Positions 44,541 through 54,623 of a stretch of DNA of 64,000 nt are shown one piece after another. Below the pieces are notes generated by a model, which saw nothing but the letters and a program-made list of their open reading frames with translations, did no database searches and was not told the origin of the DNA. Source of the stretch: Halobaculum saliterrae (lineage in GTDB: Archaea; Halobacteriota; Halobacteria; Halobacteriales; Haloferacaceae); NCBI RefSeq assembly GCF_009831625.1, contig NZ_WUUS01000002.1:310001-374000 (forward strand). The letters are read 5' to 3'. The translations under genes were made by a program, and so were the position numbers. Position 1 is the stretch's first letter. Each line of letters starts with the position of its first letter.

Positions 44541-46325
44541 TCAGTCGTCGGCGTTCGGTTCCGTCCGCGAGGGGGAGCCGGGCGTCGGCGGGTCTATCTT
44601 CAGTTCGAGTTCGTGGAAGTAGCTTCGAGCGTCGTCGCCGTCAGTCGTCGGCGGGCGCGCGCGGGTCCGCTCGGACGCGACGTGTCGGGCGGCGATTCGC
44701 CGGACCGTCTCGCGATCCGAGTCGACCGCGGCGGCGGTCGACCCGATACCGAGGTCGCGGTCGACGAGCCGAGCGAGGATCGCATCGAGTGTATCAGCAG
44801 TGAGGCCCTCCGGCGCCTCTCGATCGTCATCGGGGGAAGTGGCTCCCGAGCGACCGCGGTCACGTCGCTCGGAGAGGTCGGGGACGGCGACGGAGGGGTC
44901 GAGCTGTCGGCCGATCGCCGCCAGTTCGCTCGCGTACGTGGTGCCGAGCGGCCGGAGGTCGGCCGCCGCGTCGCCGTATCGAGTCACGCGTCCGAGCAGG
45001 GCGTCGGTCCGGTTCGTCGTTCCGACGACGAGCCTGTCGTCGGCGTTCGCGACGTAGTACCGGCACGCCGTCCGGACCCGTGAGACGAACTCGGCCAGAT
45101 CGGCCGCGCCCGCCCGCTCGGTGACCCGGACCGGGAGCGCCGCCTCGAGTTCGGTGACGAGGGGTCTTATCGTCACGCGATCCAGTTCGATCTCGAGGTC
45201 GTCGGCGATGGACTGGGGCGCCGGATCGGCGATACCGGCGGCCTTGTGACAGGGGAGATGGAGTCCGCGGACCCGCCCGGGTCCGAGGGCCTCGACCGCG
45301 ACCGCGGCGGCGACGCTCGATTCCCGTCCGGCACCGAGGTCGAGGACGACTCCCTCGGCGTCGGCCGTGTCGACGCGGGACTGAACGAGGTCGACGGCAC
45401 GGACGGCGATCGCCGACGCCCGACGGTCGCCACCGACGGGCGACCGGGCCCCGGCGTCACCGGTTCCGACGGGGGTGTCCTCGACCCGGCGGGACGGCAC
45501 CGGCGGCCGCTCCCGCTTGTGCTCGGTCCGACGAACCCGGTCGAGGAGCCGTGTGACCGTCTCATGCTCGACGCCCGCCGTCTCGTCGATCGGCGCCGGC
45601 GGTGCGTCCGGGTCCGCGTCGACGAGCGTCTCGAGAACGCCGTCGAGCGTCTCGTAGGACGCCCCGAGATCGGACTCGTCGGTCTGTCCGGACCAGAACC
45701 CCGCCGTCGGCGGGCGCGAGCGAATCGACGGCGGCACGTCGAGGGAGGTCGCGAGCGCCCGTACCGCCGTCTTGTCGTACTCGCCGAGGGGGTGCAGGTC
45801 CGCGGCGTCGTCGCCGTACTTCGTGAAGTACCCGAGCAGCCGCTCGGTGCGGTTGCTCGTGCCGACGACCATCCCGTTGGACGCGTCCGCGACGAGATGT
45901 GCACACGCCATCCGGAGGCGCGCGGCCAGGTTTCCGACGGCGACGGCGTCGCCATCGGCGGCGATCCGCGGGGCGACGTACCGCTTGAACACGTCCAGCG
46001 CCGGCTCCAACGGGACGGTGACGTGGTCGACGCCGAGCGAGTCGGCGAACGAACGCGCGTCGCTCGTGTGTCGCTCGTCGGTCGTATCGGTCGGCATGAT
46101 CAACGCCGTCACCTCGGAAGCACCCACGGCCTCGACCGCGAGCGCCGCGGTGGTCGCCGAGTCGACGCCGCCGGAGAGGCAGACGACGGCGTTCTCGGCG
46201 TCGAGCGTGTCGGCCGTCTTCCGGATCAGCTCCACCGAATTCGATCGGAGCCGTTCGGGACGCCCGGTCCCGCGGCTGTCGTCCGTGCCCGCCCGACCCG
46301 CGAGGCGTTCGGCCGCCACGCTCAC
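44541..46325 (-). CDS. nadE: Duplicated NAD synthetase: active N-terminal copy and degenerate C-terminal copy
   Basis: This is a 594-residue protein of two NadE copies. The N-terminal copy (about 30-270) has the PP-loop SGGVDSATTA (51-60), GTSNRTERLLGYFTKYGDD and RPPTAGFWSGQTDESDLG, so it should make NAD from nicotinate adenine dinucleotide with ammonia. The C-terminal copy (about 300-560) repeats the fold, but its PP-loop reads DLGAGRESSVAA. It keeps GTTNRTDALLGRVTRYGD and lacks the PPTAGxWxGQTDE block. It should not bind ATP normally and may be regulatory. An Arg-rich linker joins the two. The start is GTG, overlapping the upstream small gene by 4 bp. Confidence 0.85.
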   Translation of the reverse strand: MSVAAERLAGRAGTDDSRGTGRPERLRSNSVELIRKTADTLDAENAVVCLSGGVDSATTAALAVEAVGASEVTALIMPTDTTDERHTSDARSFADSLGVDHVTVPLEPALDVFKRYVAPRIAADGDAVAVGNLAARLRMACAHLVADASNGMVVGTSNRTERLLGYFTKYGDDAADLHPLGEYDKTAVRALATSLDVPPSIRSRPPTAGFWSGQTDESDLGASYETLDGVLETLVDADPDAPPAPIDETAGVEHETVTRLLDRVRRTEHKRERPPVPSRRVEDTPVGTGDAGARSPVGGDRRASAIAVRAVDLVQSRVDTADAEGVVLDLGAGRESSVAAAVAVEALGPGRVRGLHLPCHKAAGIADPAPQSIADDLEIELDRVTIRPLVTELEAALPVRVTERAGAADLAEFVSRVRTACRYYVANADDRLVVGTTNRTDALLGRVTRYGDAAADLRPLGTTYASELAAIGRQLDPSVAVPDLSERRDRGRSGATSPDDDREAPEGLTADTLDAILARLVDRDLGIGSTAAAVDSDRETVRRIAARHVASERTRARPPTTDGDDARSYFHELELKIDPPTPGSPSRTEPNADD

Positions 46326-46615
46326 TCAGCCCCCGATCCGGCGTCGTCCCCGTGATCGGCGTGTCTCGCGTCCGGAGTCGGCTCGCCCGGCGGGAGCTCG
46401 TACGCCACGCTCGAATGGATCCAGGCGTCTACCCGATCGCGATCGTAGACGATCACGCCGTCGTCGCCGAGCGATATCCGATCGTACCTGTTGGTGACCG
46501 GCGTCTCCGTCGAGCCGCCCTCACCCGGTGGCTCCGCCGTCACGGCGATCCCCCCGAGAACGGAGCCGTCTGAGGGGATATCTCGCCGGATCCGATATCG
46601 ACATTCGTTTCGCAT
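46322..46615 (-). CDS. Small haloarchaeal protein (DUF7331-like)
   Basis: This 97-residue acidic protein is co-translated with nadE (4-bp overlap). The conserved-looking core is NRYDRISLGDDGVIVYDRDRVDAWIHSS, here spread over about residues 42-69, resembling short haloarchaeal proteins annotated DUF7331. There is no transmembrane segment. The ATG at 46615 fits a TATA-like CCTAATATC on the minus strand about 30 bases upstream; an in-frame ATG at 46627 is less compatible. Function is unknown; its coupling to NAD synthesis is noteworthy. Confidence 0.65.
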   Translation of the reverse strand: MRNECRYRIRRDIPSDGSVLGGIAVTAEPPGEGGSTETPVTNRYDRISLGDDGVIVYDRDRVDAWIHSSVAYELPPGEPTPDARHADHGDDAGSGAE

Positions 46616-46641
46616 ATCCTCATACATCTATTCGTTACGGA

Positions 46642-47035: not shown

Positions 47036-48178
47036 ATGAGTGGAGAATATCGGTCAATGCCGCTCCGTCCCGTCGATCGCGACGTTCTGGAGGACATCTC
47101 ACAGGACATCACGCAGGCCAACTACGGGTTCCTGTACGTCGACCGCGTCCGCGACGACCTGAAGGACCAGTATCAGAGCAGAGAGAAACGTCGCCTGAAG
47201 GCCCCGAAGCTGTCGAACTCGGACATGAAGGAGGCCCTTCGGGACCTCGCCGAGGACGAGAACTACAGCCTCGAACGGATCCGGTCGGGGGTGTTCTACT
47301 GGGATCCGTTCGGGAGCGGCACGCGCACGGGGATCACGGAGCGACTCAAGGGCGTGTTTCGCGACCAGATGGTCGTCACCACCGAGGACCTCCGGAAGGC
47401 GTTCGATCTGGCACACGAGGACGCCGACTTCTTCGCCTCGCAGTTGCGCCGACAGAACCTCGTGATGCGCATCGCCGCCGGCAGCCGGGACTACTACTCC
47501 GTCGGCTCGCGGCTGAAGGAGGAGACCGGCGAGGACGACCTCAAGGGGAAACTCAAGCGACGATCGACTCACGGCAAGCTCTCGCACGGTCAGCTGGAGG
47601 AGGCGATCTCGGTGGCCGCCACCTCCGACGTGATCGGCTACCTTCAGGGCGAAGGGCTCATCATCGACATGGACGGGGAGTACCTCGTCCGGAGCGCGCT
47701 GGACGAGTTCGCCGAGAAGCTCGCCGACGACCTCGGCGACGACGTGAGCCGGGCGTTCGACGACGCCGGCAACGTGATGCCGACGGGCGAGTACGACTCG
47801 CTGATCGAGTCGGAGATCGAGGTCCGCTCGAACGTCCTCGCGCACGTCAGGTCCAGCGGCGCCGACGTCGACAAGCGGGACGTCGTGGAGGCCGTCCAGG
47901 ACGAGTACGGCGAGGGCGGTGACCCGCACATCGAGGTGCTCGAGGCGCGCAGCCTCGCGGTGGCCGCCGAGCCGTTCGACCGAATGGTCGAGGCGAGAGC
48001 GGAGGACCTGACGCGGCCGTTGTTGCAGGACCTGACGGCGGCCACGGCCGACTCGCTCAAGTCGGAGCTCCGCGAGGAGATCGAGGAGCTCCACCTCACG
48101 ACGAGCGACGCCGGGAACGCGTACGCACGGACGCAGGTCCGTGAACGCGGCGAGGAGCTGATCGACGAGCGGTTCTGA
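47036..48178 (+). CDS. Winged-helix-like protein opening the AAA+ operon
   Basis: This 380-residue soluble acidic protein has several helix-turn-helix-like stretches (e.g. RPVDRDVLEDISQDITQANYG, then LSNSDMKEALRDLAEDENYSL and SHGQLEEAISVAATSDVIGYL). A helical C-terminal third (LTRPLLQDLTAATADSLKSEL) is likely coiled. No enzymatic motif is seen. It could be a DNA- or protein-binding adaptor, and the winged-helix repeats resemble those in archaeal ESCRT-like or COP9/proteasome-lid proteins only in general shape. It starts the five-gene plus-strand operon. An ATG at 47057 is an alternative start. Confidence 0.7.
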   Translation: MSGEYRSMPLRPVDRDVLEDISQDITQANYGFLYVDRVRDDLKDQYQSREKRRLKAPKLSNSDMKEALRDLAEDENYSLERIRSGVFYWDPFGSGTRTGITERLKGVFRDQMVVTTEDLRKAFDLAHEDADFFASQLRRQNLVMRIAAGSRDYYSVGSRLKEETGEDDLKGKLKRRSTHGKLSHGQLEEAISVAATSDVIGYLQGEGLIIDMDGEYLVRSALDEFAEKLADDLGDDVSRAFDDAGNVMPTGEYDSLIESEIEVRSNVLAHVRSSGADVDKRDVVEAVQDEYGEGGDPHIEVLEARSLAVAAEPFDRMVEARAEDLTRPLLQDLTAATADSLKSELREEIEELHLTTSDAGNAYARTQVRERGEELIDERF

Positions 48179-48208
48179 CCACCGATCCACCACCACTCAC
48201 TGAATCCA

Positions 48209-49243
48209 ATGCGCTACACTACCTTCGAGGAAGACGAGAAGTCCGGAACAGTCGTCGCCCGACCGAAGAGCCAGACCGACTCGGCGGTCAGGTTCGAACA
48301 CGGCTTCGCCGACTGGGCCGACGAGGACAGCGGCAACTGGGAGGAACTGCTCGCCCACCTCATGGAGGAGGTCCTCGGCGGCGAGGACCTCTCGATCGAC
48401 CAGGACGGCAACGCGGTGATCGACGTGGATGACGCCGCGAAGACCCTCGCGGAGAGCGAACACGCCCGCAGCGAGGACTCCGCACGGGCCATCATCGACT
48501 ACCTCGGGCACAACGACATCGTCACGATCGAGCAGTCGACGGTGACGGTGCTGCGGCCGCCCCACACCTACGACGAGGACGAGATGGATCGGGCGGTGAA
48601 GATGTACAGCAACTGGGCGGCGGCGTTCGACACGCTGACCGAGCGGATCGAGACGGCCGTCGGTCGCGTCGAGGAGGCGCAGGAGCGGCTGAACTCGCGC
48701 GCGGAGGACACGACGGACGTGACTGAACACCTCCAGAACCTCCGCGAGTCGCGAGAGGAGTACAAACAGGAGATGCTCTCGATCGCGGGCGACCGCGACA
48801 TCGACGACCTCGGCGAGGAGGAACGTCGCAAGTTCGACCACGCCCGCGAACAGTACTACCACTACGACAACCTCGTCGAGCAGGAGGAGAAGCAGGGCGA
48901 GACGATCCCGAACCCGAACCCCGACCAGATGGACCTCGGGGAGATCATCAACCAGCTCGAGTCGACCAAGGACCAGTTCTCGATCGAGCAGGAACGCCTC
49001 AGGGACCGGATCCGGACCCAGCAGCTGTGGCCGACCGACGCGGTCGCCGCCTCCGAACAGTTCACGAACGTGCTGTCGGCGATGGGCAACGTCGTCCCGA
49101 AGCAACAGCGGATGGAGGAGGAGGACGCCCAGAACGTCCTCGACGACCTCCGCGGGAACTCCGACGAGCTCGCACAGATGAACGAGTCCTCCCAGGAGAT
49201 CACCCAGGGCGAGACGGAAGCCGAGACGATCACGGAGCAGTGA
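48209..49243 (+). CDS. Winged-helix and coiled-coil protein
   Basis: This is a 344-residue protein. An N-terminal mixed domain (about 1-115) includes a winged-helix-like part (DDAAKTLAESEHARSEDSA, then IIDYLGHNDIVTIEQSTVTVL). A long coiled coil follows (about 125-290: helices with AVGRVEEAQERLNSRAEDT, LRESREEYKQEM and LESTKDQFSIEQERLRDRI), and an acidic tail ends the protein. It is soluble with no signal peptide. It is the second gene of the operon, 30 bp after the first, and may be a structural or adaptor protein for the AAA+ ATPase. No family is recognised. Confidence 0.7.
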   Translation: MRYTTFEEDEKSGTVVARPKSQTDSAVRFEHGFADWADEDSGNWEELLAHLMEEVLGGEDLSIDQDGNAVIDVDDAAKTLAESEHARSEDSARAIIDYLGHNDIVTIEQSTVTVLRPPHTYDEDEMDRAVKMYSNWAAAFDTLTERIETAVGRVEEAQERLNSRAEDTTDVTEHLQNLRESREEYKQEMLSIAGDRDIDDLGEEERRKFDHAREQYYHYDNLVEQEEKQGETIPNPNPDQMDLGEIINQLESTKDQFSIEQERLRDRIRTQQLWPTDAVAASEQFTNVLSAMGNVVPKQQRMEEEDAQNVLDDLRGNSDELAQMNESSQEITQGETEAETITEQ

Positions 49244-49360
49244 GGATGACGGTCGGGGCTCCGTCGCGACCGGCGGTCGTCCGCACGGCGGGGTCCGACC
49301 CGTCGGGTCGGGATACCGACTCCCGCGTCGGGAGCGGAGCGCGAGGCGGGAGGTAACACA

Positions 49361-50005
49361 GTGTCACGTCCAACGAGCGCCGGTCCGTGGATCGACCGCG
49401 TCGCCGTCGTCGAGGAGACGAGCGAGCGGGTCCTCTCGTGGGCGGAGCCGCCGGCCCCCGGCGAGGTCTGGTCCGAGGTCGCGGCGTTCGACGCCGCGCT
49501 ACGCGGGATCGGCGACCTCTTCGCCGACGCGTTGCCGCTTCCGGTTCCGGCCACGGCCGACGATCCCCGCGTCGCGGAGGCGGTCGAGCGGGTGCTCGTC
49601 GCGGCGTTCGAGGGAGAGGAACCGCCGGATGCGGCGGTCGAGGCCGCACGCGAGACCGGCCGCCTCGGCGAGGACCCCGCGGACGGGCGCGCCGTGCCGC
49701 TGGCCACCGTCGGCGATCCGGTCGCGAACTGGTTCGTGCTCGTGCCGGTCCTCGCCGACCGACTCGAGGCGGCCGCCGAGCGCGTCGAACGCTGCGCCGG
49801 CAGGATGGAACTCCACGGCCGCCGCGACTCCGCGGCCGCGTTGCGGGACGTGGCGGGCGCCCTCCGAGACACCGTCGCGACGGTGCGGAACGTCGCCACG
49901 CGAACGCTGTGGCTCAATCCGCCCGACGGCCTTATCGACGCGAAGGAACGGCGGGTGCGCGAGTACGTGACCCGAACGATGAACGCCTACAACCCAGTCG
50001 CATGA
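49361..50005 (+). CDS. Small helical protein upstream of AAA+ ATPase
   Basis: This is a 214-residue, mostly helical, soluble protein that starts with GTG. Long amphipathic helices (VWSEVAAFDAALRGIGDLFADAL, residues 36-58; later LADRLEAAAERVERCAGRMEL and ALRDVAGALRDTVATVRNVATR) suggest a helical bundle. No catalytic motif is present. Its end overlaps the AAA+ ATPase gene by 4 bp, so it is co-translated and probably a dedicated partner. The 117-bp gap before it has no supported gene. Confidence 0.65.
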   Translation: MSRPTSAGPWIDRVAVVEETSERVLSWAEPPAPGEVWSEVAAFDAALRGIGDLFADALPLPVPATADDPRVAEAVERVLVAAFEGEEPPDAAVEAARETGRLGEDPADGRAVPLATVGDPVANWFVLVPVLADRLEAAAERVERCAGRMELHGRRDSAAALRDVAGALRDTVATVRNVATRTLWLNPPDGLIDAKERRVREYVTRTMNAYNPVA

Positions 50006-51627
50006 CGAGTGTCAATCTCACGCCGATCACGAAAGAGGACCAGCCGACATCCCACGTCACCGTGGGCGAGAGCAAGGTGGGACCGGGCGCGGAGGTCGTC
50101 CGCGTCCGCCACGCGGGCCGCGAGGCGTTCTTCCGGGTCGACACCGAGGAGGACGGCTTCGCGAGCACGATCAAGAACAAGGTCTACCTCAACAACAACG
50201 TCGCGACCCTGTTCGGGGGGATCAACCGGACGAACGACTTCTACGTCGACACCGACGTGTCCCTCGGGGCGATCAGAGCGTGCAAGCGCGCGACGATCTA
50301 CGCCGAGGGCGTCAACGAGGAGGCGCTGACGTCGGCGCTCGCGGAACGACAGTTCCTGCTGCACCCCATCCACGAGGTGGCCGACATCGGCGGCGAACGG
50401 GTCGAGTTCGTCGTCGACGAACTGGAGCCGCGGGCGACGACGCTCCGCGTCGACGACGACACCGAGTTCGAGTTCCTCGACGAGCCACCGACGAGCACGG
50501 GACCGCCGGCGGGCGCCGCCGCGGGCGGATCGGACGGCGGCGGGGCACCCGGGGGCGGCGGAGCGGGCGGCGGTGCCGGCGGAGGGGCCGACGAGGAGGA
50601 GGCCAACATCGACATCACGCCCCAGAACCCGACGACCAGCTTCGAGGAGGACGTCGCGGGCCTCGAGGAGGTGAAGCGGACGGCGGAGATGATGCTGTCG
50701 CTGTTCGAGCCGGACGTCCGCGACGAGGTCGTCGAGCGGTACGGCGAGGAGTTCGCCGACCGCGGCGGCGGGATGATGCTGTACGGGCCGCCCGGCTGCG
50801 GGAAGACGCTCGTCTCGGAGGCGATCGCCTACGAGGCGAAGCACAACACCGACATCGAGGACAGCTACGGCGAGGTCGTCTTCCTCGAGGTCCGCGGCAG
50901 CGACGTGGTCTCCAAGTACTCCGGCGAGTCGGAGAAGAACGTCCGCGCGGCGTTCGAGCAGGCCCACGAGGCCGCCGGCGACGGGTTCGCCGTGCTGTTC
51001 TTCGACGAGGTGGAGACCCTCATCCCGGACCGATCGGACGACATTCAGCGCCACGAGCGGGCGCTGACGAACGCGTTCCTGCAGGAGATGAACGACGTGG
51101 AGGACAACCTCCTCGTCATCGGCGCGACGAACATGCCGTTCAGCATCGACCCTGCGGCGACCCGCCGGTTCCCGATCCAGCAGTTCATCCCCCAACCCGA
51201 CGCGGAGGTGATGTCGGAGGTGTGGCGCACGTCGCTGGGCCGCATCGGCGAGGAGCTCGGCGAGGAGGCTATCGCGGAACTCGGCGAGGCCTCGGTCGGG
51301 TACACCCCCGCGGAGATCGCGGACCGGATACTGGGCTCGGAACTCCAACGCGAACTCATCGAGAGCGTCATCGACGGCGACGCGATCACGCCCGACAAGG
51401 AGTACCTAATGGAGAAGCTCGAGGAGTCCGAACCCAAGACCGTCCGTCAGTACGTCTCCTCGACGATGAAGCAGGCCTCCGAGCTGGAGGGGTACCCGGA
51501 GATGAAGCGGTACCTCGAGGAGCAGGCCCAGCAGATCCGCGAGGAGAACGCCGCGAGCGGAGAGTCGTCCGCGGCGCCCGACGGTGACGCTCCGGCGGCG
51601 ACGGGGAACGGGACGGGGGCCGAGTAG
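50002..51627 (+). CDS. AAA+ ATPase of the Cdc48/Vps4 type with N-domain and glycine-rich linker
   Basis: This is a 541-residue ATPase. A novel N-terminal domain (about 1-160) is joined by a glycine/alanine-rich linker (about 165-200) to one AAA+ module. That module has Walker A GPPGCGKT (262-269), a pore loop KYSGESEKNVR, Walker B VLFFDEVE (331-338), a sensor VIGATN and an Arg finger region in AATRRF. The C-terminal helical lid and a disordered Ser/Ala/Gly tail follow. It has a single AAA module, as in Vps4 and katanin, rather than the two of Cdc48. It probably forms a hexamer that remodels protein complexes, most likely those of its own operon. Confidence 0.88.
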   Translation: MTSVNLTPITKEDQPTSHVTVGESKVGPGAEVVRVRHAGREAFFRVDTEEDGFASTIKNKVYLNNNVATLFGGINRTNDFYVDTDVSLGAIRACKRATIYAEGVNEEALTSALAERQFLLHPIHEVADIGGERVEFVVDELEPRATTLRVDDDTEFEFLDEPPTSTGPPAGAAAGGSDGGGAPGGGGAGGGAGGGADEEEANIDITPQNPTTSFEEDVAGLEEVKRTAEMMLSLFEPDVRDEVVERYGEEFADRGGGMMLYGPPGCGKTLVSEAIAYEAKHNTDIEDSYGEVVFLEVRGSDVVSKYSGESEKNVRAAFEQAHEAAGDGFAVLFFDEVETLIPDRSDDIQRHERALTNAFLQEMNDVEDNLLVIGATNMPFSIDPAATRRFPIQQFIPQPDAEVMSEVWRTSLGRIGEELGEEAIAELGEASVGYTPAEIADRILGSELQRELIESVIDGDAITPDKEYLMEKLEESEPKTVRQYVSSTMKQASELEGYPEMKRYLEEQAQQIREENAASGESSAAPDGDAPAATGNGTGAE

Positions 51628-51629
51628 CC

Positions 51630-54623
51630 GTGGACGACGCCGGCTCGGACTCCGAGGAGTGGGGCGATTCCCCCGCCGACGAGGACTCGGACGCTTGGGG
51701 CGACCGGGCGGGCGACGGCTCAGCCGACCCCGGTTCCGAGCCCGTCGACGTGCCGGGCGCGGCGGACGTATCCGATGAACCGGACGCCACCGCGACCGAG
51801 GAAGTAGCGCAGGACGATGGGACGCCAGACGAGACGGCCCACGCCGACGCCGACGGGTCGGAGACGGACCCGGCCGAGGAGGCGACGGTTCCGGACCGGT
51901 ACGTGCAGGTCGACGCCTTCGACATGCCGGAGGTCGCGGCGGCGGACGCGGGCCCCGGCGTCATCGCCGTCGCGACCGCGGACGGCCGGATCGACCTCAT
52001 CACGTCGGGCGACCGGCGGCGCGTCACCCGCAGGGACGGCGTGATCGACGTCGCCGTCGCCGACAGGGTGTACGCGCTCACCGACACGGAACTGGAGGCG
52101 TTCTCCCACGCGGGGAGCCGCGTGTGGGGCGTCGACGTGACGGACGGTCGCTCCGTCGACGCCGACCCCGAGGACGACCGGGTGTACGTCCGAACCGGCG
52201 ACGGGGAGTTCGTCGTCCTCGAGGGGCGGACCGGCATCGAGGCCGGCCGGTTCGACCAGCCGAACGCCGAGGTCGCCGAGTCGCCCGCGGTCGCCGCCGC
52301 AGACGGCCGGCTCGCGGTCGCCTCGTGGTCGTTCCTGACGGTGCTCGACTCGTCAGGGGATCTGCTCGACGAGCAGACCCTCTCAGGCGCGGTCACCGAC
52401 GTGGGGCTGCTCCCGGGGCGTGCGGTCGTCTCTCTGAAGGACGGCCAGCTCGTCGGGTACGAGGGCGACGAGCGGCTGTGGGGGGTCGACGGCGACGTCT
52501 CCTGGCTGGCGGACGCCGGGATCGCGGCGCTGGCGGCCCGCGTCGCCGGCAGCGACTACGCGGTGGACACCGACGGCGACCGGCGCCCGCTCGACGGGGT
52601 GAGCGGCACGCCGATCGCGGCGACGCCGGCGCTGGATCTGGTGTGCACGGTCGGAAGCGGGACGGCGACGGTGTACGCGGCGGTCGGGCAGGGTGACGAG
52701 TCCGTCGGCGTCCGGATCGAGTCGGAGTCGGTGCGTCCCGCCGACCCGACGGTGGTGCTCGCGCTCACCAACGAGGGCGACCGCGCCGTCGAAGTCGACG
52801 CCACCGTCGAGTCGGAGGGTGCCGAGGTCGCCTCCTCGACCGTGTCGGCCACCATCGACGCCGACGCAACCCAGCGTCGGCGCGTCTCGCTGCAGAACCT
52901 GTCGGCCGAGGAAGTGACCGTCGCCGCGACCGCGGGCGAGGCGTCGGTCGAGAGAACCCTGGAGGTGCAGGAGGAGACCACCGCGCTCCGCGTCGACGCC
53001 GTGCTCGATGGGGTCGAGAACGGCGTGTTGTCCGCGGCGATCGAGGTCGAGAACGAGGGCGAGTCGAGCGTGACGGGCGTCACCGTGGGGGAGAGGACCG
53101 TCGGGACGCTCGACCCCGGCGAGGCCGAGCGCGTCCCGTTCGAACAGGACCTGCCCAGCGGCGCGGTGGCGGTCCGCGCGGACGGCGTCGACCCGTTGGA
53201 GGCCGGGACGGCCGTGCCGACGACGCCGACCGCGATCGATCTCGAGGCGGAGTCCGACGGCTTCCTCTCGGTGACGCTGCGCAACGAGACGCCCGTCGCC
53301 GTCGACGACGAGGTCACCGTCGAGGGCGTCCCCGACGAGGACGGCTCGTTCTCGATGCCGGTCTCGATCCCGGCGAACGGTGCCTATCGACTCGCGCTCC
53401 CGGTCGCGTCGCCCGGCGAGCGCTCCGTCACCGTCGAGACGAGCGGCGGACGTGTCTCCGAGCGCCTCTCGTTGGCGCGGTGTTCACTGCTCGGGGAGCC
53501 CGCGACCGGCGGCGACGCCGGTCGAACGGGCGCCGGCGGTGACGGTCGAGGGGCGACCCGATCGCGGGGACGGTCGTCGACCGGGTCCCGACCCGTCGCC
53601 GGAGGCGACGAGGCAGTGCCCGTCTCCATGGACCGACAGTTCCCGTCGGAACCGCCGCGTCGGGGCGTCGTGTTCGAGGAGCGGCTGGTGGTGTCGAACG
53701 AGTCGGCCGAGCCGGTCGAGTTCGAACTGCGAACGGACGACGGCGCCTACGCACAGCGACTGAAGGTCCGCGGGAGCGGGCAGGCGGTCGGGACCAGGTA
53801 CCACGTGCCGCTGGAGTCGACGCTGTCGCTTCCCAGGGTGGAACTGGAACACGAGGGAGGGGTCGCGTCGCTTCCGGAGACCGATCTGTCGGTCGACGAC
53901 GGGGGCCTCGTCGCGACGATCACGTGGCGGCGGGACGACGCCCGCGACGGCGGCGAGCTCTCGCTGTCGCTCGAGAGCGACGAGGGGACGTGGGAGGTGG
54001 AGGACGCCGTCGTGGGCGGCGAGCGGTCGGCGCCGATCGACGCGCGCGTCGGCCCAGACTCGCCGGCACAAGTCACGGTCACCACCCCGTACACGCTCCG
54101 CGACGAGGTCGGGAAGGCGTTCGTTCGCGCGCGTCGGGTCGACAGCCGGGCGGCAGAGGGAGACGTACAGCAGATCAACACGCTGGTCGTCCACGAGTCG
54201 GTCACGGACGGGGACGACGACCGCGTGGACGACCTGAGCGTCGAGGTAGAATCCGACTCGCGCGTCGAGCGCGGGTTCGGGTCTGTCTTCCTCTCGATAA
54301 CGAACGACGGCTCGCGGCCGGTCGCCGGCGTCTCCGTCGACGCCGACGGGTCCCACGTGGAGAAGGCGATGTACGCGGACGGCGACGACGGGGAGACGAT
54401 CGCTCCGGGGTCGTCGCTGCGGTACCTCGTCGACCTCGAGGGCGTCGAGGCGGGCGAGGAGGTCGTCGTCGACGCCGAGGTGACGGCCGGCGAGGCCGCC
54501 ACGCACGCCACCGTCTCGGCAGTCGCCGACGAGGACGGAGCCGTCGAGTCGGGGGACTGGACCCTCGATGTCGAGACCGACGAATCCGGCGGGCCGTCCC
54601 GGCTCTCGACGCAGTACGAGTAA
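51630..54623 (+). CDS. Large cytosolic propeller and Ig-like repeat protein
   Basis: This is a 997-residue protein starting with GTG, two bases after the AAA+ gene. Residues 1-90 are highly acidic and disordered. About 90-350 form a beta-propeller with repeated blades (VIAVATADGRIDLITSGD, RVYVRTGDGEFVVLEGR, RAVVSLKDGQLVGYEGD). From 350 on come CARDB-like Ig folds, each rich in alternating strands (TVVLALTNEGDRAVEVDA, LSAAIEVENEGESSVTGV). An Arg/Gly-rich hinge (about 625-660) is followed by two or three more such domains. There is no signal peptide or membrane segment, so these normally extracellular folds are apparently inside the cell. It may be a scaffold. Confidence 0.7.
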   Translation: MDDAGSDSEEWGDSPADEDSDAWGDRAGDGSADPGSEPVDVPGAADVSDEPDATATEEVAQDDGTPDETAHADADGSETDPAEEATVPDRYVQVDAFDMPEVAAADAGPGVIAVATADGRIDLITSGDRRRVTRRDGVIDVAVADRVYALTDTELEAFSHAGSRVWGVDVTDGRSVDADPEDDRVYVRTGDGEFVVLEGRTGIEAGRFDQPNAEVAESPAVAAADGRLAVASWSFLTVLDSSGDLLDEQTLSGAVTDVGLLPGRAVVSLKDGQLVGYEGDERLWGVDGDVSWLADAGIAALAARVAGSDYAVDTDGDRRPLDGVSGTPIAATPALDLVCTVGSGTATVYAAVGQGDESVGVRIESESVRPADPTVVLALTNEGDRAVEVDATVESEGAEVASSTVSATIDADATQRRRVSLQNLSAEEVTVAATAGEASVERTLEVQEETTALRVDAVLDGVENGVLSAAIEVENEGESSVTGVTVGERTVGTLDPGEAERVPFEQDLPSGAVAVRADGVDPLEAGTAVPTTPTAIDLEAESDGFLSVTLRNETPVAVDDEVTVEGVPDEDGSFSMPVSIPANGAYRLALPVASPGERSVTVETSGGRVSERLSLARCSLLGEPATGGDAGRTGAGGDGRGATRSRGRSSTGSRPVAGGDEAVPVSMDRQFPSEPPRRGVVFEERLVVSNESAEPVEFELRTDDGAYAQRLKVRGSGQAVGTRYHVPLESTLSLPRVELEHEGGVASLPETDLSVDDGGLVATITWRRDDARDGGELSLSLESDEGTWEVEDAVVGGERSAPIDARVGPDSPAQVTVTTPYTLRDEVGKAFVRARRVDSRAAEGDVQQINTLVVHESVTDGDDDRVDDLSVEVESDSRVERGFGSVFLSITNDGSRPVAGVSVDADGSHVEKAMYADGDDGETIAPGSSLRYLVDLEGVEAGEEVVVDAEVTAGEAATHATVSAVADEDGAVESGDWTLDVETDESGGPSRLSTQYE

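Follow-up and report, generated by a model that had tools for sequence, protein, structure and literature searches.

What use does a haloarchaeon have for an NAD synthetase that carries a second, decayed NAD synthetase in the same polypeptide? The question is raised by a gene on the reverse strand at positions 44541..46325 of the window, a stretch of 64,000 nucleotides from Halobaculum saliterrae, which starts with GTG and encodes a protein of 594 amino acids. A preliminary description, made from the sequence alone, had taken this gene for a tandem NadE with a complete N-terminal and a degenerate C-terminal copy, and profile searches confirmed the presence of two NadE copies in one open reading frame (ORF), as the Pfam family PF02540 (NAD_synthase) matched two stretches of the protein with a total of 332.5 bits (E = 1.5e-99). 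The NCBIfam model NF010587 gave 380.4 bits with the whole tandem protein, thus passing its cut-off of 255, and its best stretch comprised residues 26-279 in the N half. The N-terminal NadE domain (residues ~25-280; 45486..46253, reverse strand) contains the NadE signature residues, with the motifs LSGGVDS, PPTAGFWSGQTDE and EHKR all found as described and the P-loop SGGVDS located at residues 51-56 (46158..46175, reverse strand).

A linker (residues ~281-309; 45399..45485, reverse strand) leads to the C-terminal pseudo-NadE domain and its tail (residues ~310-594; 44544..45398, reverse strand). The C-terminal 319 amino acids alone matched PF02540 with 107 bits (E = 1.1e-30) over profile positions 4-239 of 242, and the C half alone reached 131.9 bits with NF010587, below the cut-off of 255; together with the fold matches to NadE given below, these results show that the C half is a second NadE copy, no member of a separate family. 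The ATP site of this half is degenerate, as had been stated: the former P-loop in LGAGRES now reads GAGRES (residues 331-336; 45318..45335, reverse strand) in place of SGGVDS and the PPTAG-W-GQTDE block is absent, GTTNRTDALLGRVTRYGD being kept, and no replacement for the lost ATP motifs is visible in the sequence of the C half. A FHELEL-type motif in the C-terminal tail (residues 566-577; 44595..44630, reverse strand) was found in tandem proteins; it is missing from all 19 single NadE ORFs compared. No glutaminase or nitrilase domain was detected in the tandem protein by Pfam at E values up to 1, which rules out a glutamine-dependent NadE, as this type has a nitrilase-type glutaminase domain. 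The normal single-domain nadE for which the preliminary description had proposed to look is present on another contig of the same genome (G000:C1:360727-361449, 271 bits) and, thus, the fused gene does not encode the sole NAD synthetase of this organism.

The proposed survey of haloarchaea likewise revealed two-copy NadEs beyond this genome, in Halobaculum, Halocatena, one Haladaptatus and one further genus. Among 60 genomes (its own, 10 of the same genus, 25 of the same family and 24 of the same order) the full-length tandem was present in its own genome and in eight of the 10 congeners, and in none of the 49 others; two of the sampled Halobaculum congeners are without it. A family-wide sample of 170 genomes showed the tandem in the same nine only, among the matches listed. 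In an order-wide sample of 392 genomes, the match covered over 430 of the 579 positions in 14, namely seven of Halobaculum and seven others, the latter consisting of G289 (the further genus), Haladaptatus pallidirubidus and five of the genus Halocatena, including Halocatena salina. Searches of two other families gave the tandem in 6/146 and 2/28 genomes; one of the six, G481, duplicates G395, with identical match coordinates and score, and was dropped before the counts. No further genus with the tandem appeared in a class sample (391 genomes) or a phylum sample (392 genomes), the phylum search having been run at a strict limit of 1e-95 on an evenly drawn sample, which distant tandem forms could escape. 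Scanning of genome contigs with the query P0001 yielded one single-domain relative only, from a scanned set that possibly leaves out near relatives. The tandem lies on replicons of 250-490 kb in Halobaculum roseum, H. magnesiiphilum, H. halobium, H. marinum, H. limi, H. lipolyticum and Halobaculum sp. CBA1158 (plasmid records), and this patchy spread, often on secondary replicons, suggests that it was disseminated by horizontal transfer.

The residues kept in the two halves were tabulated for 16 tandem proteins; H. lipolyticum is included in the 17-protein set and absent from the 16-protein table, tree and comparisons. At the tabulated positions we take Glu to be a ligand of Mg, Lys a ligand of ATP, and H269 and K270 contacts of NaAD, by the presumed ligand assignments of UniProt/HAMAP MF_00193. 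All 16 N halves retain SGGxDS, R136, T156, E161, K169, D176, K185, W211, Q214, D216, H269 and K270 as well as HKR near the C-terminus; position 207 is Thr in 15 and Ser in one, and A208 and E217 are conserved in 15 and 13 of the 16, respectively. The C halves present a different pattern. The residues equivalent to R136 and D176 are present in 16/16 and the P2-loop Trp (W211) is lost from 16/16; in 10 of the 16 (eight Halobaculum and two Halocatena) the equivalents of the P-loop, Glu161, Lys185 and the P2 block are all changed, the alignment of the decayed P2 stretch being uncertain, and the remaining six keep the equivalents of the P-loop (one as SGSVDS), Glu161, Lys185 and HKR. The His-Lys pair equivalent to H269/K270 is lost from seven of the eight decayed Halobaculum C halves. 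In the C half encoded in the window, the P-loop is GAGRES, the Glu161 equivalent is Asp, the Lys185 equivalent is missing and no P2 loop can be recognised. With H. lipolyticum, whose C half has SGGLDS and a largely lost P2 block, SGGxDS is intact in 6/17 and changed in 11/17 C halves, and five of the six C halves bearing it also keep most of the P2 block. The second copy is thus degenerate here, as the preliminary description had it; this is, however, no isolated decay and instead represents one end of a series in which the C half is nearly intact in other genera, as it is in Haladaptatus. All 16 C halves have a Cys, within an LPC[HGY] motif, at the equivalent of residue 359 of the 594-residue protein; the Cys of LPC[HG] also occurs in 7/30 single NadEs and was discarded as a C-half marker.

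Parsimony reconstruction of SGGxDS as intact or changed, on a 17-protein tree from which the P-loop and P2 columns had been removed, required four changes, placed at G433, at G467 with G358, at G004, and at G001 and G002 grouped with the five nearest species, Halobaculum saliterrae among them; when the mild SGS change of G433 was excluded, three changes remained. The label clustered no more strongly than shuffled labels (93 of 500 shuffles were as low), so that the point of this result is recurrence and not phylogenetic signal. Judged by motifs and tree, the ATP motifs of the C half have been lost recurrently, giving a series from nearly intact to dead.

In a 65-row tree, which left out 11 canonical sequences, the 16 C halves formed one clade with a support of 100/100, and the 16 N halves likewise grouped as one clade, weakly supported at 75/35 (80% of bootstraps). 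Halocatena stood apart from Haladaptatus, G289 and Halobaculum in both half-clades, Halobaculum being one clade in each, and the canonical nadE copies were placed elsewhere in the tree; one alignment left out L027. As the N halves and the C halves form separate, congruent clades, the fusion is, on this phylogenetic evidence, old, its NadE halves having diverged as separate lineages. A constraint uniting N and C halves was not rejected (p-AU 0.413), a result that fits neither tandem duplication nor fusion of older paralogs uniquely. Both halves of L118 and L119 (G467 and G358, genus Halocatena) sit on long branches, of 0.75 and 1.12, and their N-half motifs are kept.

dN/dS was calculated according to Nei-Gojobori for the five nearest species (10 pairs) and ranged from 0.20 to 0.40 for the C half, 0.10 to 0.31 for the N half, 0.07 to 0.20 for the canonical nadE and 0.42 to 1.45 for the linker, which over residues 282-312 of the five nearest orthologs has an amino acid identity of 43% and a dN/dS of 0.66. 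Within the C half, the segment of residues 410-470 (SRVRTACRYYVAN...GTTNRTDALLGRVTRYGDAAADLRPLG; 44916..45098, reverse strand), which we take to hold the dimer-facing helix of NadE, gave 0.10 and the former P-loop segment (residues 326-349) 0.11, as compared with 0.04 for residues 129-190 of the N half. The P2-loop remnant (residues 476-513; 44787..44900, reverse strand) gave 0.52 with 44% identity. In a set of 36 pairs the C-half values rose up to 0.61; dS was ~1 or above in the distant pairs, where the method saturates. The dead C half is therefore still under purifying selection, with the exception of the P2 loop. Constraint on the GAGRES segment suggests that this stretch now serves some purpose of its own.

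Structure prediction of the C half alone resulted in a model with a pLDDT of 75.3 and a pTM of 0.75, part of the P2 remnant falling below 50. Its best match was the Pyrococcus NadE 2e18 (Z 26.7, 245 residues, rmsd 2.6), and Foldseek searches also led to NadE structures. The C half is thus predicted to keep the NadE fold; as an alignment of NadE proteins went into the model and partly dictated its fold, the match stands for compatibility and does not amount to finding the fold independently. The full-length model (pLDDT 66.2, pTM 0.64; residues 438-538 with pLDDT < 50) was obtained from an input alignment with almost no coverage of the C half and cannot, for this reason, settle the packing of the two halves; at these scores it was set aside as proof of an internal dimer. 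Fold searches with the full-length model matched NadE chains, chiefly through the N half.

Upstream of the tandem gene lies a DUF7331-like ORF of 101 amino acids (46322..46627, reverse strand), whose Pfam score is just under the curated cut-off and whose stop codon overlaps the NadE start (GTGA), and downstream, in convergent orientation, a gene for a winged-helix regulator of family PF03444 (44000..44518, forward strand); homologues of both were found at all nine Halobaculum loci compared. Relatives of this PF03444 gene adjoin single-domain paralogs of nadE in four further genomes (L053, L057, L059 and L060), and hence the Halobaculum tandem may sit at an older nadE2 locus; by the same gene order, the winged-helix protein is a candidate regulator of the second NAD synthetase in several haloarchaeal genera. 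Uncharacterised genes for proteins of 380, 344 and 214 amino acids, conserved in several Halobaculum, lie beside the tandem at positions 47036-54623 of the window, and in H. roseum this block continues with an AAA ATPase and a large protein. The 344-amino-acid protein gave a JetC-like match (E = 0.00079) too weak to call.

In Haladaptatus and G289 the tandem is preceded on one strand by the row DUF7331-like ORF, amt, PII and a degenerate NadE, with overlaps or short gaps between the genes. The stand-alone degenerate NadE genes (L103:8982-9932, forward strand, and L124:9740-10813, reverse strand) thus lie beside amt, PII and the tandem gene; the Haladaptatus copy is annotated as 7-cyano-7-deazaguanine synthase, a label at odds with its best Pfam and NCBIfam matches, which are to NAD synthase. 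PII is known to bind bacterial NadE2-Gln and to relieve its inhibition by NAD, and PII-nadE islands have been reported in Archaea too (PMC7196632). The row hints at a tie of the tandem to nitrogen or ammonium control, by analogy with these systems. Among 16 tandem loci compared, the amt-PII linkage occurs at two. Relatives of amt or PII were found neither near the tandem in the Halobaculum and Halocatena neighbourhoods compared nor near single-domain NadE loci in 16 neighbourhoods (L049-L064). PII itself was present in all eight genomes checked, and in the four of Halobaculum it lies inside an ORF of ~560-580 amino acids away from the tandem; the absence of the row at the Halobaculum tandem loci, with PII elsewhere, speaks against a nitrogen link.

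NadE forms homodimers in which the substrate site extends across the subunit interface. The reading that we favour, at slightly better than even chances, is that of an active NadE fused to a pseudo-NadE as its built-in dimer partner; from the data above we infer catalysis by the N half, internal pairing, regulation and the nitrogen link alike. The N half would be an ammonia-dependent NAD synthetase, predicted to convert NaAD and ammonia into NAD, and the C half would be a permanently attached second subunit, having kept the NadE fold and the dimer-facing part and lost the ATP/Mg motifs in this lineage. Each protein would then possess a single functional site, with residues of the inert C half completing it, and the tandem would serve as an accessory enzyme beside the canonical NadE, probably linked to ammonium or nitrogen status. 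Both the choice of residues lost and retained and the selection on the dead half are in keeping with a pseudoenzyme partner. Retention of an ATP-dead partner would also make sense because the NaAD site of NAD synthetases sits at the dimer interface (PMC6946656). Selection on residues 410-470 and the Arg and Asp retained in the C half lean towards internal pairing. Loss of the His-Lys pair from seven of the eight decayed Halobaculum C halves argues against it, as this would weaken a contribution in trans if the pair acts across the interface, and the presence of R136 and His-Lys in all 16 N halves is explained at least as well by an N-N' dimer of two chains. Such a dimer would have two working sites, the C half being an appended nucleotide sensor (for NAD, NaAD or ATP/ADP) or a docking module for a partner such as PII. 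We consider this arrangement unlikely, yet the most serious of the alternatives: the N half keeps all residues checked, including any that serve only the partner's site, two presumed NaAD-binding positions are kept in 16/16 C halves and rows with PII exist in two genera, whereas the most constrained C-half stretch is 410-470, presumably the dimer-facing helix, and PII is not found beside the tandem gene in Halobaculum.

A changed substrate, with the tandem acting for example as an NMN synthetase-like enzyme or in another amidation and not on NaAD, would find room in a genome where a canonical nadE is already present, and, of the solved structures, 3fiu, the Francisella NMN synthetase, is the second-best match in sequence; an NMN route might in theory be supplied by archaeal NadM (PMC3376133). 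We judge this improbable, as all 16 N halves retain their NadE signature residues, the best structural match by sequence is again Pyrococcus NadE 2e18, and the cut-off of the NCBIfam NAD+ synthase equivalog was passed. That both halves are catalytic and paired internally, the C-half losses being tolerated or compensated, receives very little credence from us for the window protein, with its GAGRES, its Mg-ligand Glu replaced by Asp, its ATP Lys lost and its P2 loop beyond recognition; the P2 Trp is gone from all 16 tabulated C halves too. The same proposal may well be right for the nearly intact tandem proteins of other genera, given the six of 17 C halves with SGGxDS and the P2 block largely kept in five of them. 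An ageing duplicate with no maintained role would account for the faster evolution of C half and linker relative to the canonical nadE and for the two sampled congeners that lack the tandem; this we hardly credit at all, since dN/dS is well below 1 for both halves in all ten close pairs and none of the 17 tandem ORFs is interrupted.

Compared with single-domain ammonia-dependent NadEs (PF02540, NF010587), including the canonical nadE of this genome, the N half is alike in the P-loop, the P2 block and the C-terminal HKR, and the C half in fold and conserved core. The tandem differs from them in having two domains per chain, the second devoid of ATP motifs, a FHELEL-type tail, and its place as one of at least two NadEs in the genome. 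Glutamine-dependent NadE (type F, glutaminase plus synthetase) is also a two-domain NAD synthetase; in the tandem, however, the second domain is another NadE. With the PII-regulated NadE2-Gln of Azospirillum, Herbaspirillum and Synechocystis (PMC7196632) the tandem shares, in Haladaptatus and G289, linkage of nadE to PII; it lacks the glutaminase domain, and in Halobaculum the linkage is absent. The stand-alone degenerate NadE of Haladaptatus and G289 is likewise a NadE-family pseudoenzyme with an altered P-loop, encoded by a separate gene, unfused and forming its own clade. Eighteen NadE homologues (L085-L102) were met on contigs filed as viral in IMG/VR, several of them longer than 100 kb.

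The accessible text of a survey of the NAD synthetase family describes single-domain forms and glutaminase-domain forms only (PMC3376133). Our literature search, with most subscription papers outside its reach and absence from print therefore unproven, retrieved no paper on a tandem NadE or NadE-NadE fusion; the enzyme family is known, its fused form apparently new. A bolder view of the favoured pairing is that haloarchaea possess an NAD synthetase with a catalytically dead twin as its obligate internal partner, that up to four lineages separately took apart the active site of this twin and retained its interface and shared substrate-binding part, and that a two-site homodimer was repeatedly turned into a one-site pseudo-heterodimer, perhaps first under ammonium/PII control with a further NadE pseudoenzyme; we hold this to be possible and, on balance, somewhat doubtful. 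The natural series from nearly intact to dead second halves allows direct tests of the contribution of the second subunit, of why half of the sites are dispensable and of whether pseudoenzyme halves regulate NAD synthesis, and the row of amt, PII and pseudo-NadE provides an archaeal test of the link between PII and NAD known from bacteria.
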